From: Pseudolabrys sp.
GTDB taxonomy: Bacteria; Pseudomonadota; Alphaproteobacteria; Rhizobiales; Xanthobacteraceae
Direction: 5' to 3'
NCBI GenBank assembly: GCA_022841665.1
Contig: JALHRB010000039.1
Location: forward strand, 1-37,129
Length of the DNA stretch: 37,129 nucleotides
Under the pieces are notes generated by a model. The model was given only the letters and a program-made list of their open reading frames with translations. It had not been told where the DNA came from and searched no databases. A program made the position numbers and the translations under genes. This document shows, piece by piece, positions 28,689 through 33,329 of the stretch. Every line of letters starts with the position of its first letter. Position 1 is the first letter of the stretch.

Positions 28689-28692
28689 CCGT

Positions 28693-28717
28693 CATGGCCG
28701 GCATAAAGCCGGGCATG
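28693..28717. repeat. Short hairpin after yqeY, dispersed-repeat type
   Basis: CATGGCCGGC (28693-28702) pairs with GCCGGGCATG (28708-28717) with one mismatch around ATAAA. It resembles the 6024-6056 element. No T-run follows, so it is not a standard terminator, though it may stabilise the yqeY message. Confidence 0.55.
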
Positions 28718-28748
28718 CCGCCGTAAAGATAAGATCCAGGGGGAGGAC

Positions 28749-29714
28749 ATGAAAAAGCTTCTGGCGGTGACGGCGATCGCGGCGGCGCTGATGGCAACGC
28801 CGGCCTTGGCGCAGGATTATCCGACCAAACCGATCCGCGTCATCACCTCGTCGAGCGCGGGCGGCATCAGCGATCTGTTCATGCGCGTGCTCGGCGACGC
28901 CATGCGGCCGCACATGAACAACCAGCCGCTCATCGTCGAGAACCGGCCGGGCGCCGCCGGCGGCATCGCCGCGCGCGCCTGCCAGGATGCCGAGCCGGAC
29001 GGCTACACGATCTGCATCCTCAATGTCGATACGCTCGCCTACAACCAGTTCCTGTTCAAGACGCTCAGCTACGATCCCGAGAACGGACTCGCGCCGATCG
29101 TCAACCTGTTCCACCTGATCCAGGTGCTGGTGATCAACGCCGACCTCAAGGCCAAGACGGTCGACGAGCTGGTCGCCGCGTCGAAGGAGAAGAAGGGAAC
29201 GCTGAGCTATCTCACCGCATCGATCCCGCTCGCCGCCTATATGGAGAACCTCAAGCGCGACAAGGGCGCCGACTGGGTGCGCGTGCCGTTCAAGGGCGGC
29301 GGCGAAGCGACCAACGCCATTTTGTCCGGCTCGACGCCAATCGGGCTGATCGGGCTCGGCAACGTGACCTCGCAGATACAGTCCGGCAAGATGACGGCTC
29401 TGGCGCTGGTCAACAACGTGCGCACGCCGCTGCTGCCCAACGTGCCGACGCTTGCCGACACCGGCTACAAGGGCGCGCCGTCGCAGACCTGGTACGGCCT
29501 GTTCGCGCCGGCCAAGACCCCGAAGCCGTCCATCGACAAGATCAACGCCGAGGTGCGGCGCGTCTTCGCCGACAGGGACTTCGTCGAGAAATACGTGATC
29601 AGCCGCGGCCAGGTGCCGGCGGTGGGCTCGCCGGAAGAATTCGCCGCCGAGATCAAGTCGAACCGCGAGGCGGCGAAGCAGGTGGTGAAAGACTCAGGGC
29701 TGGAGGCGAAGTAG
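28749..29714 (+). CDS. TctC/Bug-type tripartite tricarboxylate transporter binding protein (second orphan)
   Basis: A 321-residue periplasmic binding protein with signal peptide (PALA/QDYP cleavage near residue 21). It carries the Bug hallmarks QDYPTKPIRVITSSSAGG, VENRPGAAGGIAARA, DGYTICILNVDTLAYN and APAKTPKPSIDKINAEVRR. Ligands of this large family are carboxylates and related acids; none can be predicted here. GGGGGAGGAC lies just before the ATG. It is not accompanied by TctA/TctB permease genes. It is only distantly similar by eye to the other Bug protein at 10387-11373. It lies in the region inserted between yqeY and dnaG. Confidence 0.92.
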   Translation: MKKLLAVTAIAAALMATPALAQDYPTKPIRVITSSSAGGISDLFMRVLGDAMRPHMNNQPLIVENRPGAAGGIAARACQDAEPDGYTICILNVDTLAYNQFLFKTLSYDPENGLAPIVNLFHLIQVLVINADLKAKTVDELVAASKEKKGTLSYLTASIPLAAYMENLKRDKGADWVRVPFKGGGEATNAILSGSTPIGLIGLGNVTSQIQSGKMTALALVNNVRTPLLPNVPTLADTGYKGAPSQTWYGLFAPAKTPKPSIDKINAEVRRVFADRDFVEKYVISRGQVPAVGSPEEFAAEIKSNREAAKQVVKDSGLEAK

Positions 29715-29799
29715 CGCGGCCGAATCCAGCCCTTTGCCGCCCGCCCGCCGGCGCGATTTGTTCGTGCACATCCTATCGGCGCAGATTGATCAACAGCAA

Positions 29800-29814
29800 T
29801 GCACAGGTTGTGCA
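29800..29814. promoter_or_regulatory. Palindrome TGCACA-GGT-TGTGCA upstream of the lipoprotein-hydrolase pair
   Basis: A perfect 6-base dyad in the 207-base gap before the lipoprotein gene. Flanking ATCAACA (29789-29795) and TGTTGAT further right form a wider inverted arrangement, and another GTGCACA lies at 29764-29770. The region is AT-richer than the neighbours. It is a likely operator or promoter zone for the two-gene module; the regulator is unknown. Confidence 0.45.
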
Positions 29815-29921
29815 CACGCGATTGCGCGATGTGTTGATAAAAGCGCTCATAGGTTGTCGTCGCCTTCCAACCCCTCCGTAATGCCCGCGGGGTCAACCGC
29901 AAGCGGCGGGTGGGGGCATGC

Positions 29922-31337
29922 ATGCGTTCGTTTGTGTCGGTGATGGTGGGCGGCGCGCTGGCGCTGGCGCTGGCGGGGTGCGACCCGGTCACCGATAAGC
30001 ACTATTTCACGAAGGGCATCGGCACCGAGCTCTATACGAGCTCGATCAGCGAAAAGTCGAACGAACTCGAAATTTACATTCACGAGACCTGCCAGCAGGC
30101 CGGTCTCGTCTACAGCCACGACGGCGAGTGCCTGCCCCTGACGAAGATGGATCGTGCCGCCACCTGGACCCTTTTCGTCCAGGCCGGCATGAACGACATC
30201 GACCGGCGCTGCGATGGCTATCTCGTGTGGCTCGACAACATCCGCCGTTCCGAAGCGCCGCGCCTGAAGCAGTTGGGCGACACGAACATCGCCACGCAGC
30301 TCGTGCTGACGACGACGAACGCCGGCGTCGTGCCGATGGCGCTCGTCGCCACAGCCTTCGGTTTCGCGGCCGACACGCTGACCAACGTCAATTCGCGCCT
30401 GATCCTCACGGTCAATCATTCGACCGTGCAGGCGGTGGTGCTCGGGCGGCAAAAGGAATACCGCAAAGACCTGCTCGGCGACGGCAATAGCAAACCAAAG
30501 GTCATCATCGACAACCGCCCCGCGGCGGTTCACGCGCTGCGCAACTACATGCGCCTGTGCATGCCAATGACGATCGAGACCGAGATCAACAATACGATCG
30601 TGGCCTATGAGCGCGGTGGCATCGAGGCGCTTCGCGCCGAGAAGATGATCACGGCGATGAGCGTGTCGCAGCCCGTAACGGCGGCACAGACGCTGATCAG
30701 GCCGATCAGAAAATTCGAGCCGACCGATGAGTATGCACAGTTCTTTGAAGAAAAATTGTCGAAGACTGAGGCGCAAAAAGTCTTGAACGGTCTGTGCCTC
30801 AACAAGAACTCGACGCCGGATATGACCAAGGCGGAGGTCATTGCTTCGCTGGTCGCGATATTCGAGCAGTCGAGAGATTCCGACATCAAGCCGGTGCCCG
30901 ATGGAAAGATCAGCAGGCGCGAGCGGCCCTTTATTGCAAATCAGACTGACTGCGGAGACGCCAAGAACTTCTTCGAGCGGAAGGCTTACGCTAACTCCGT
31001 AACCACAGGTGCCGATAATGCGGGGGCGCTCGCTTGGTTCGTCAAAAATCGACTGGTTCGATCGCCTGATACCGAGCCGGTCCCCGATCCGATTACGTTG
31101 ACCAATCTTCGCAAGAAGATTCAAGCCGCGCGCGTCGCGCTAAAGCTCGAGGATGTTCAGGCGCCGATGAACGACCAGATTACCCGGCAGTTGGACCTTG
31201 CTCTCGCAAGATTGCCAAGGCCGCAAACGCCGCCTGCCACGCAGCCGCCTGCCACGCAGTCTGGCACGCAGCCGCCTGCCACGCAGCAGGGCGAGCAGTC
31301 GCCTGCCGCACAACCCCCCGCGCCGCCTGCCAGATAA
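29922..31337 (+). CDS. Unrecognised lipoprotein preceding a cell-wall hydrolase
   Basis: A 471-residue protein I cannot place in a family. Residues 1-20 are a lipoprotein signal ending in the lipobox LAGC (Cys20); Asp21 is the residue that keeps lipoproteins in the inner membrane in E. coli. Cysteines at 57, 70, 97, 213, 292 and 344 could form disulfides in the periplasm. A hydrophobic stretch (about 133-150, NAGVVPMALVATAFGFAA) is followed by helical segments; the tail (about 434-471) is Pro/Gln/Thr-rich with PPATQ repeats. The ATG at 29922 has GGGGG upstream. Thirteen bases separate it from the hydrolase gene, so they form an operon. GC falls in its second half. It could be an immunity protein, anchor or partner of the hydrolase; all of these are inference. 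Confidence 0.8.
   Translation: MRSFVSVMVGGALALALAGCDPVTDKHYFTKGIGTELYTSSISEKSNELEIYIHETCQQAGLVYSHDGECLPLTKMDRAATWTLFVQAGMNDIDRRCDGYLVWLDNIRRSEAPRLKQLGDTNIATQLVLTTTNAGVVPMALVATAFGFAADTLTNVNSRLILTVNHSTVQAVVLGRQKEYRKDLLGDGNSKPKVIIDNRPAAVHALRNYMRLCMPMTIETEINNTIVAYERGGIEALRAEKMITAMSVSQPVTAAQTLIRPIRKFEPTDEYAQFFEEKLSKTEAQKVLNGLCLNKNSTPDMTKAEVIASLVAIFEQSRDSDIKPVPDGKISRRERPFIANQTDCGDAKNFFERKAYANSVTTGADNAGALAWFVKNRLVRSPDTEPVPDPITLTNLRKKIQAARVALKLEDVQAPMNDQITRQLDLALARLPRPQTPPATQPPATQSGTQPPATQQGEQSPAAQPPAPPAR
31230..31286 (+). repeat. Tandem 15-base repeats encoding PPATQ
   Basis: CCGCCTGCCACGCAG occurs at 31230-31244, 31245-31259 and 31272-31286, with a shorter variant unit (TCTGGCACGCAG) between. They encode the Pro-Pro-Ala-Thr-Gln repeats of the lipoprotein tail. 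Identical DNA copies suggest recent expansion. Confidence 0.85.
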
Positions 31338-31350
31338 TCCGGAGGCTTCG

Positions 31351-33189
31351 ATGAAGTACCGCGTGAAATTCGGTGGCGACCTGCTGGATGCACCGAATGG
31401 CAACTTCAAGGACAGTCTTGTCGCAAACCAGACAGTTACCGGCATAGGCAAAAAGTCAGGCGACTTTATTGAAGTCAAGACGTCGGCCGATACCGGATGG
31501 GCGCACAAGGATGACCTCGTAGCGCTCGAGCGCGAGATTCTCGCTTTAGAAGCGTTTGTGCGTGAAACAATAATTGCGGAACGGACGTTCAACGACCTTG
31601 AGCAAACCGGCTTTTGGTTTGTGCTTGCGGATTTCATCATCGCACGTGCCTTGATCGAGACGAGGCCCGAGATTTCCAACGTAGGCAACAAGTTTGAGGG
31701 GTCTGATGCTGTCGGTCCGCTGCAAGTATCATCGGCCGAGTGGAATCGATTTCTCGGCGGCGATTTCCCGATCAAACAGGGTTACGAACCGGACGACTTC
31801 GACAATTATCTGATGCAAGTCTGGGGCGCCGCTTACACCATGCACGCGGACGCAAAGGCCATCAGCAAGGTGAAGCAGGAGGCCGGGCTTGGCAGCGATG
31901 AAGACCCGCCGCTCCCGAGCTATCTCGAAATCTATCTCGCTTATCTTACAGGCAGCCCGAAGGCCGCCGTCGTTCTTGTCGCGGGCACCGCGACTGCCGA
32001 GGATATGGGGCAGAAGGATGCGGCGAGTAGCCCGCAACCGCCGGGACCGGACCGCGCTGTCAAGCTTAATGAACTTTTGAAGACAAAAGGCGGCATGTCT
32101 TCCGACGGCATCGCCACTTTGTTCAAGCGGCGCGCGACCTGGACCGGCAGCAACGACGCCAACGCGAAAACAGCGGGCGAATTCGTCACGGCCGTTTCCG
32201 ACGAACTCAACAAGGCGCTGCGGGAGGCGTTTGAACTCATCCAGAAGCACGCGCCGGAGACGATCGTGCCGCCGGGCGAAGGCCCCGCACCGTGGTTTAC
32301 GGTGGCCCGGACAGAGGAGGCCAAACTCAAAGATCTCGACGAATCCGCGCCCGTGGCCGACGCGCGCATCAAGGCCTACTTCCAGTCGATCGGCATGGCC
32401 GCGGGCGGAAGCACACCCTGGTGCGCAGCCTTCGTGTCGTTCTGCGTCAAGAACAGCGGTAATGACACTGTAGCCGCCACCGTGCCAAAGCGCGGACCGG
32501 CTTTGGCCGCGTCATGGCAGTTCTGGGGAGAACCGCTCCCGGTGAATGCGAAAACCTTGCCCCCGGGCGCAGTCGTCGTGCTCATCCCGACGGAGAAAAG
32601 CGACAGCTCGGGGCATGTCGGCTTCTATGCGCGCGGCGACGATAAGACGGTGACGTTGCTGGGCGGCAATCAATCCAACCGTCTGAAGGAGAGCACCTAT
32701 TCGCGTTCGCGCGTCGTCGCCGTCCGCTGGCTCAACGCTTCAGAGGCGTCACTTACGCCGGTTCAGGCGACGAATATCAAGCTCAATGCCTTCAACGCAC
32801 AACAGCAGGAGATGGCGAAGCTTATCATTCAGAAGTTCGCAGACGCCGGATTTAACAGACTTCATCAGATTGCTGCGGTCGCGAATGCCTGGAGGGAGTC
32901 CAGTCTAATTCCGACAAAACAAACGACAACGGCGAAAGAAGACAGTGTCGGACTTTTCCAACTCAACATGAAGGGAGGTCTCGGGGAGGGGCACGACCCC
33001 GATGAACTCAAGAAGCCCGAAAAGAACATCAGCCTGATCATCGATAAGTGCAAACGGGTTGGCGAGTTCAGGCGGGCGGCGACCTTGGAACAGGCGGTCG
33101 CGGCCTTCGTCCGCTTTGTCGAGATTCCCGGCAACATGGAGGCAGAAATCGCGGATAGATTGGCCAAGGCCAATTCGCTTTTGGCCTAG
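31351..33189 (+). CDS. Multidomain peptidoglycan hydrolase: SH3-like, transglycosylase-like, TIGR02594/CHAP-like peptidase, phage-tail-lysozyme-like
   Basis: A 612-residue protein with no signal peptide or membrane helix. Residues 1-60 look like a bacterial SH3 domain. Residues about 85-210 resemble a lytic-transglycosylase core (ALIETRPEISN with Glu103; GPLQVSSAEW). Residues about 310-480 match the TIGR02594/CHAP-like peptidase pattern: TPWCAAFVSFC with Cys358, GHVGFYARGDD with His422 and LLGGNQSN. Residues about 495-610 match phage tail lysozyme (AAVANAWRESSLIP with Glu516; DSVGLFQLNMKGG). It should cut both the glycan and peptide parts of peptidoglycan. GGAGG precedes the ATG. It is co-transcribed with the upstream lipoprotein. 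Low, patchy GC and its place between yqeY and dnaG suggest acquisition. Phage-derived endolysin, injected toxin or wall-remodelling enzyme are all possible. Confidence 0.85.
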   Translation: MKYRVKFGGDLLDAPNGNFKDSLVANQTVTGIGKKSGDFIEVKTSADTGWAHKDDLVALEREILALEAFVRETIIAERTFNDLEQTGFWFVLADFIIARALIETRPEISNVGNKFEGSDAVGPLQVSSAEWNRFLGGDFPIKQGYEPDDFDNYLMQVWGAAYTMHADAKAISKVKQEAGLGSDEDPPLPSYLEIYLAYLTGSPKAAVVLVAGTATAEDMGQKDAASSPQPPGPDRAVKLNELLKTKGGMSSDGIATLFKRRATWTGSNDANAKTAGEFVTAVSDELNKALREAFELIQKHAPETIVPPGEGPAPWFTVARTEEAKLKDLDESAPVADARIKAYFQSIGMAAGGSTPWCAAFVSFCVKNSGNDTVAATVPKRGPALAASWQFWGEPLPVNAKTLPPGAVVVLIPTEKSDSSGHVGFYARGDDKTVTLLGGNQSNRLKESTYSRSRVVAVRWLNASEASLTPVQATNIKLNAFNAQQQEMAKLIIQKFADAGFNRLHQIAAVANAWRESSLIPTKQTTTAKEDSVGLFQLNMKGGLGEGHDPDELKKPEKNISLIIDKCKRVGEFRRAATLEQAVAAFVRFVEIPGNMEAEIADRLAKANSLLA

Positions 33190-33329
33190 TGGTCATGTCT
33201 TCGAAAATCGCAGGACTCCGATCTCCACCCCCTGTGAATAGCCGGGACAACCGGCCTGTGGCGCCGTAAGGCTCCGCCTTGGCGGGGACAGAATCGGTGG
33301 CTAAGCCCCGATTCGGCCTATAAAACCCC

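Follow-up and report, generated by a model that had tools for sequence, protein, structure and literature searches.

What are a lipoprotein gene and a gene for a multi-domain cell-wall hydrolase doing between yqeY and dnaG of an alphaproteobacterium? The question is raised by a 37,129-nucleotide stretch of DNA from Pseudolabrys sp. (assembly GCA_022841665.1, contig JALHRB010000039.1, positions 1 to 37,129 of the forward strand; hereafter the window), in which the two genes lie on the forward strand at positions 29922-31337 and 31351-33189. A first-pass annotation, made from the letters alone, had described them as an operon of a lipoprotein and a 612-residue protein, and had seen in them an acquired, domesticated phage-like module for lysis or interbacterial antagonism. 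Both open reading frames (ORFs) are present. The first begins with the ATG at 29922, after an intergenic stretch (29715-29921), and encodes a lipoprotein of 471 residues. The second starts 13 nt past the stop of the first, behind a probable ribosome-binding site, GGAGG (31341-31345, forward strand), and encodes a predicted modular peptidoglycan hydrolase of 612 residues without a signal peptide; gene starts and ends throughout come from simple ORF calling. Based on the comparisons set out below, we propose that the pair is a polymorphic, probably antibacterial lysin module in which a constant lipoprotein acts as the partner of the enzyme, in immunity, export or both. We give this proposal slightly less than an even chance of being right.

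Do the two genes belong together? They form one linked module. Scanning genome contigs with 12 lipoproteins yielded 51 loci in Bradyrhizobium, Pseudolabrys, Rhizobium, Roseibium/Labrenzia, Methylobacterium, Mesorhizobium, Ensifer, Sinorhizobium, Hoeflea, Beijerinckiaceae and others; carrier metagenome-assembled genomes (MAGs) labelled Candidatus Accumulibacter and Armatimonadetes may be misbinned. The scan used a single peptide pattern, [MLF]NDIDxRCD, so that divergent members are under-sampled and conservation of the motif is partly by construction. A second same-strand ORF of at least 200 residues follows the lipoprotein gene in 47 of the 51 loci, the observed spacings being -148 to +306 nt where -150 to +500 nt had been allowed. 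In the remaining four the lipoprotein frame is disrupted (L078, L088) or the contig ends (L113, L114). The partner core profile matches 45 of these 47 ORFs, the exceptions being L080 (268 residues) and L087 (366 residues); the downstream ORFs of L082 and L103 are short, and at L076, the locus of genome G031, the SH3-like ORF is split off. All five annotated plasmid loci also have a second ORF, and four of these match the core, which brings scan and plasmids together to 49 matches in 52 second ORFs, 19 of the 49 not being rows of the profile.

In a sample of 397 genomes of the order, 15 have the lipoprotein; the partner core is found at E <= 0.001 in 34, of which 12 are strong matches (E <= 1e-10). 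The neighbours of these 12 strong matches were checked, the window and six of the 11 others being profile rows themselves. Eleven adjoin a lipoprotein gene, ten of them one of those 15 and the other a divergent one in G071 (E 9e-20), and the twelfth, in G127, is a different, prophage-like protein with no lipoprotein in 12 kb. Viewed from the other gene, 10 of the 15 order genomes with the lipoprotein have an adjoining partner core, and in two more (G125, G245) other proteins, with ankyrin or PG_binding_1 domains, lie downstream. In a wider sample of 289 genomes from the class, seven are matched by the lipoprotein profile, that of the window among them, and three of the seven reach no better than E ~1e-4. 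Among 60 close relatives the lipoprotein is found in four and a partner match in 16, covering most of the protein only in the window and G017.

What kind of enzyme is the partner? In the window it comprises, all on the forward strand, an SH3-like domain (residues 1-60; 31351-31530), a lysozyme/SLT-like domain with a putative catalytic Glu103 (about residues 61-215; 31531-31995), a TIGR02594/CHAP peptidase domain (residues 353-460; 32407-32730) and, in a swappable position, a C-terminal phage-tail-lysozyme-like domain (residues 488-610; 32812-33180). The first-pass annotation had named these four kinds of segment, and they are recovered with unequal firmness. CHAP passes its cut-off (E 7e-6, 26.9 bits against 26), TIGR02594 falls narrowly under its own (E 2e-19, 70.0 bits against 70.55) and Phage_lysozyme2 stays below (E 5e-4, 20.6 bits against 28.2). 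Residues 1-215, with the SH3-like and transglycosylase-like segments, have no Pfam match in the window protein; both segments are visible in the AlphaFold2 (AF2) model (predicted local distance difference test, pLDDT, 89) and in the family alignment. The chains that Foldseek listed for the partner model belong to NlpC/P60, SH3 and lysozyme proteins, and all of them have E above 0.001; the SH3-like domain, with AF2 strands in residues 2-58, retrieved the SH3 chain 2krs (probability 1.00, E 0.012). In a profile search the lysozyme-like domain weakly resembles a lytic transglycosylase and the endolysin gp144 (E 0.11-0.12). The peptidase domain matches phrog_1259 as well as TIGR02594, and the main PHROG matches of the partner span residues 313-500. 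Its Cys358, His422 and Asn440, which we take to be the catalytic residues, are kept in 32, 31 and 32 of 34 partners, respectively, and the lysozyme-like Glu (column 103) in 28 of 34. A hydrophobic N-terminus appears in merely 3 of 58 partners by a Kyte-Doolittle test.

Across the family the partner is a mosaic, in which a core of SH3-like and lysozyme-like domains is often followed by a TIGR02594/CHAP peptidase and then by unrelated wall-cutting C-termini. Pfam finds, among 58 partners, CHAP in 29, Hydrolase_2 (SleB-like) in 15, Phage_lysozyme2 in 14, SLT_3 in 10, SLT in 6, DUF2272 and PG_binding_1 in 3 each and M15 in 2, with GH24, NlpC/P60, M23, GH19, Amidase_5, Transglycosylas, SH3_3, DurB-like and ankyrin domains in one each. 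In a comparison of 31 partners, 30 have a C-terminus, and these form six types, between which no similarity is found at E 1e-4; the phage-tail-lysozyme-like type accounts for 9 of the 30, window included. The family has the constant part joined to exchangeable, here putatively toxic, domains that characterizes polymorphic toxins.

The pair also occupies fixed slots beside dnaG, clpB and uvrB, and there its alleles are strongly diverged. In the clpB slot (12 loci, 66 pairs of loci; L114 dropped for want of a downstream ORF and L078 left out for its broken frame, the short partners L080 and L082 included), mean identity is 89.6% for ClpB, confirmed by Pfam, against 40.3% (31-69) for the lipoprotein and 30.4% (20-78) for the partner. 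The uvrB slot (9 loci, 36 pairs; seven Roseibium/Labrenzia, one Mesorhizobium MAG and one Hoeflea) gives 82.4% for UvrB, 42.1% for the lipoprotein and 29.3% for the partner. Both proteins lie below the flanking protein in 66/66 clpB-slot and 36/36 uvrB-slot pairs. The three loci of the dnaG slot show DnaG at 82-84%, the lipoprotein at 34-53% and the partner at 25-40%, the G031 partner being compared over its main ORF.

How is the pair distributed at the locus where we found it? DnaG was found in 39 of 43 genomes of the genus, and the upstream DNA of 35 was compared, besides the window, G017 and G031 (G023, with a partial DnaG match at a contig end, was left out). Twenty-seven of these contigs span yqeY to dnaG without the pair, and the other eight are too short or have no yqeY match. 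In all four genus carriers (window, G017, G031 and G012) the pair sits after yqeY; the G012 contig breaks off close to the partner, with dnaG on a separate one. The first-pass annotation had placed the pair, together with a TctC gene, in a carA-yqeY-dnaG neighbourhood that is usually compact. Pfam identifies CarA, YqeY, TctC and DnaG in the window; the compactness does not hold in this genus, the 27 pair-free intervals measuring 150-7219 nt. The yqeY-dnaG interval (window 28689-33329; L122-L156) is a variable slot in the genus. TctC as a part of the module was rejected, since it is common in the same interval without the pair (16 of the 27 pair-free contigs).

Composition also sets the pair apart. 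Its GC content is 0.593, against at least 0.626 in every equal-sized stretch sampled upstream within the window in 50-base steps, and GC at third codon positions is 0.78 in the lipoprotein gene and 0.71 in the partner gene against 0.87 in dnaG, 0.92 in tctC and 0.91 in yqeY. The hand counts of GC offered at first (28/60, 30/60 and 41/60) are exact, and the pair lies under its flanks in 39 of 52 loci. Of the first-pass reading, a single linked module that is patchy at the locus and has GC unlike the flanks is supported; of the two outcomes named beforehand as fatal to the idea of an acquired linked module, neither appeared, for the genes do co-occur and most relatives have no pair at this locus.

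Might the pair nevertheless be envelope housekeeping, a peptidoglycan-remodelling enzyme with its lipoprotein anchor under ordinary drift? Most recognised domains do cut or bind cell wall (the exceptions are ankyrin, the DurB-like hit and DUF2272), one slot is kept within several lineages, and in two slots the divergence is little above that of the neighbours. We consider this explanation quite unlikely, given the patchy occurrence (four genus carriers against 27 complete intervals without the pair; 15 of 397 order genomes), the different catalytic domains at one slot and the missing signal peptide.

What, then, is the lipoprotein? It opens with a signal peptide and a lipobox, ALAGC (29922-29981, forward strand), whose Cys20 is present in 56 of 56 aligned members. 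A constant helical N-domain follows (residues 20-245; 29979-30656), then a variable helical C-domain (about residues 270-430; 30729-31211), which is peptidoglycan-binding-like in some relatives, and a Pro-rich tail. The AF2 model (pLDDT 82; predicted template modelling score 0.53) shows an all-helical N-domain with helices at 78-131, 136-157, 166-185, 199-211 and 215-238, the first a single helix of 54 residues. D94, C97, R181, Y209, C213, P215 and I218 are invariant in 56 of 56. Searches of Pfam, NCBIfam, PHROG and PADLOC gave nothing significant for the window protein; its best weak Pfam matches, Arm_2 (E 0.016) and BEN (E 0.17), are below cut-off. PG_binding_1 is weakly matched in 7 of 56 relatives (E <= 0.05, best 0.0035; window protein not among them), and these matches were assigned to the C-domain by eye only. 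Foldseek against the PDB gave no match at E <= 0.001, and a profile search a single one at E 0.71. Likenesses to XaxA (E 1.7, Foldseek) and SLATT (1 of 56 each, E 0.03) were dismissed as chance level. A hydrophobic N-terminus is seen in 44 of 56 lipoproteins by the Kyte-Doolittle test, which is crude and suffers from overlong starts. We make no call between inner and outer membrane, because the position that follows the lipobox Cys is not conserved: among the 56 members 12 have D there, 10 S, 8 T and 6 N, and the rest have other residues.

Some members depart from this plan. A divergent lipoprotein of 537 residues, in which no NDIDxRC motif was seen, has a common-core partner downstream (L187:3440-5053, reverse strand), and at L051:8171-13222 two tandem lipoproteins precede a pair of modular proteins, of which one carries ankyrin repeats and the other a peptidoglycan-binding domain. 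Short lipoproteins of about 260 residues, with no partner core within the stretch read, occur at L055:1330-2103, L056:8308-9096 and L057:803-1573 (reverse strand), the second of which adjoins trigger factor and clpP by Pfam.

Does the pair come from a phage? Phage origin of the pair as a whole was rejected. The lipoprotein has no match among 50,697 phage records at E <= 0.1; the partner matches 430 of them and, among the 20 listed, only through residues 234-472, around the peptidase. Phage homologues of both proteins, as a domesticated prophage should have, were thus not found, and the first-pass reading as 'domesticated phage-like' is not supported for the pair as a whole. Pfam recognised no tail genes between carA and dnaG of the window, in line with the earlier remark that phage structural genes are missing nearby. 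The peptidase domain likens the partner to TIGR02594, phage tail lysozyme and endolysin proteins, from which the pair differs in its lipoprotein and in the lack of recognised tail genes around it. The sole relative found in IMG/VR (L043, 11.6 kb) has a resolvase, a transposase and a pentapeptide-repeat protein in its vicinity, for which reason this 'viral' contig could be a piece of bacterial island DNA and not a virus; no convincing structural gene was seen among its 9 scanned ORFs.

Plasmids do carry the module. The lipoprotein is on 11 plasmid records (10 Rhizobium, 1 Skermanella), six of which were examined, one without annotation. In the five annotated plasmids the partner is called phage tail tip lysozyme (2), cell wall hydrolase (2) or NlpC/P60 (1), and the lipoprotein is a 'hypothetical protein' or left unannotated because it has no significant Pfam or NCBIfam match. 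Rhizobium plasmid copies (L059, L062, L058/L189) lie near S8, C25 or zincin-like peptidases, McrC, SIR2 and conjugation genes. Across lineages, the pair has no recurrent third gene as its immediate neighbour. In the wider clustering of neighbours, based on the 41 largest clusters listed, one cluster of genes without identity spans five groups of loci, mostly at least 3.9 kb from the lipoprotein start and on either strand. Limited to six Bradyrhizobium loci is a BTAD-type transcriptional regulator (L064:6694-7975; Pfam E 9e-20 for the L064 copy). It lies some 1.3 kb upstream of the lipoprotein, and in four of the six a protein of 80-86 residues stands between the two, the L064 copy of which has no Pfam match. 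These loci represent two different sites (L064-L066; L074, L092, L096), and because the genes are common to both, regulator and small protein seem able to travel with the pair; the regulator is a possible regulator of the module.

There is a serious rival, unlikely in our judgement. The hydrolase could wait in the cytosol and lyse its own cell when the inner membrane is breached, for example by a phage, with the lipoprotein restraining or timing it and an arms race with phages driving the diversity. Abortive self-lysis of this kind would leave much the same signature as the antibacterial module that we favour: no signal peptide, endolysin-like domains, strong divergence, mobile islands and plasmids (some with the defence-like neighbours McrC and SIR2), and one carrier with a full-length partner but no intact lipoprotein. 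Against it, no sensor or holin gene was seen recurring beside the pair, and a known defence family was rejected in the absence of a PADLOC match. Highly improbable, to our mind, is a module that lyses the cell for the release of other cargo, as in type X secretion, with the lipoprotein as spanin or holin. An endolysin-like enzyme beside a lipoprotein, and a hydrophobic stretch at about residues 123-157, fit the idea; the lipoprotein, however, is large and helical with two inner cysteines invariant in 56 of 56, and neither a cargo nor a holin gene was seen recurring nearby.

If the enzyme is meant for other cells, by which route does it leave? We counted VipB, of the type VI secretion system (T6SS), and VirB4, of the type IV secretion system (T4SS), in 48 carrier genomes, L093 being left out; several are draft MAGs, the window assembly is incomplete, and the background count covers VipB only. 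VipB is found in 12 of 48 carriers and in 28 of 199 genomes of the order, so that carriers have it, if anything, more often; VirB4 is found in 24 of 48. Neither was detected in 20 of 48, including the window genome, with its incomplete assembly, and three genus mates. That the two proteins are effector and immunity protein of an injection machine already known, T6SS or X-type T4SS, is very unlikely. In its favour stand the VipB counts and the combination of a hydrolase without signal peptide and a periplasmic lipobox protein, as in X-Tfe/X-Tfi (PMC10933484). VipB went undetected in 36 of 48 carriers and VirB4 in 24, and, because the C-termini are of unrelated types, the partners have no common C-terminal signal domain. 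As a general case a T6SS/T4SS effector was rejected on genome content, even though carriers have VipB no less often than the background.

Has such an arrangement been described before? A literature search over titles and abstract openings brought up no paper that we recognised as dealing with this gene pair, and we compare it here with three systems. The nearest arrangement in print known to us is MafA/MafB of Neisseria, where the gene just upstream of a polymorphic toxin often encodes a constant lipoprotein, and the toxin itself joins a constant N-terminal part to a variable C-terminal toxic domain (PMC7738311, PMC4287609). MafA is presented as a dedicated secretion factor of MafB (PMC7738311), and the test of PMC4287609 found no such effect; MafB has a signal sequence, DUF1020 and a downstream immunity gene, MafI (PMC7738311, PMC4287609). 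The likeness lies in architecture, a lipoprotein gene directly upstream of a polymorphic gene, and is known here without comparison of MafA sequences. In contrast to what those sources describe, our partner has no signal peptide, DUF1020 is not among its Pfam hits, its putative toxic domains are those of wall hydrolases, and downstream of it no gene is found repeatedly in different lineages, so that the pair does not belong to the Maf systems.

The nearest enzyme logic is that of X-Tfe/X-Tfi pairs such as XAC2609/XAC2610, likewise a peptidoglycan hydrolase without signal peptide and a lipobox-bearing periplasmic partner (PMC10933484, PMC6536674). The X-Tfe reaches the producer's own periplasm, where the lipobox protein protects the producer (PMC10933484), and X-Tfes have a common C-terminal XVIPCD and take the T4SS route into other cells (PMC10933484, PMC6536674). 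Our partners differ in that the C-terminus is their variable part, of unrelated types (judged without an XVIPCD profile), and half of the carriers have no VirB4 match; the pair is not a member of this group as those papers outline it. WHIX-type T6SS effectors resemble our partners in being polymorphic and mostly peptidoglycan-targeting, some with two toxic domains (PMC12135965). By the same account, they are almost confined to genomes with a T6SS, and each toxic domain has an immunity gene of its own; the carriers of our pair mostly have no VipB match, a comparison made by description and without a WHIX profile.

How would the module work? In the mechanism that we propose, the second gene would make a multi-domain peptidoglycan hydrolase that has no signal peptide and acts on walls after leaving the producer or leaking into a periplasm, most likely harming competing or sister cells. 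The lipoprotein would face the periplasm, where its constant domain may meet the constant SH3/lysozyme-like core of the enzyme, and would shield the producer, aid export of the enzyme or both, while the C-terminal cutting domain would be exchanged over time. The sequences themselves show the linkage and order of the genes, the domain content and its swapping, the allelic divergence, the patchiness and the missing signal peptide, whereas enzymatic activity, binding, protection, release route and target are what we infer; constant lipoprotein, constant core, exchanged cutting domains, divergence in fixed slots and carriage on plasmids have, by analogy, the look of polymorphic antibacterial toxins. 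Of the earlier suggestions, interbacterial antagonism gains indirect backing from the polymorphic catalytic domains and the strong allelic divergence. Because its N-domain is constant over all C-terminal types, we favour the lipoprotein as a partner of the core rather than a classical specific immunity protein; the identity data are non-deciding. A mirror-tree test of binding was discarded as weak and confounded by linkage.

Several observations weigh against this proposal, besides the 20 carriers in which neither delivery marker was detected. In three order genomes (G284, G301, G359) a short lipoprotein has no partner core within the stretch read. One carrier (L046/L078) combines a disrupted lipoprotein frame with a full-length partner, and a self-toxic partner should not allow the lipoprotein to be lost; in another (L027/L088) the lipoprotein is disrupted and the partner frame stops early near the contig end. 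Divergence is ordinary at another site in three Bradyrhizobium (L064-L066; lipoprotein 83%, partner 87%, neighbours ~91%) and in three Beijerinckiaceae (L075, L079, L081), with lipoprotein and partner both ~90% identical. Rank correlations of lipoprotein identity are 0.22-0.24 with the partner C-terminus, 0.35-0.41 with the core and 0.15-0.38 with the peptidase, all weak and explainable by linkage alone. The lipoprotein does not clearly follow the catalytic C-terminus as a toxin-specific immunity protein would be expected to. Where the C-terminal type is the same, lipoprotein N-domains are somewhat more alike (45.3 vs 37.9% identity), but so are the cores (38.4 vs 29.9%).

What are the implications if the proposal holds? 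In its widest form, possible and on balance somewhat unlikely, the pair would represent a new self-contained antibacterial class in Hyphomicrobiales and relatives, in which a previously unrecognised family of helical lipoproteins would give swappable peptidoglycan hydrolases their dedicated partner for export and immunity, without recourse to T6SS or T4SS, and with hypervariable alleles in fixed housekeeping slots. For work on how rhizobia and related bacteria of soil and sea compete, the pair offers a concrete starting point, and one slot with many divergent alleles permits direct tests of kin discrimination within a genus.

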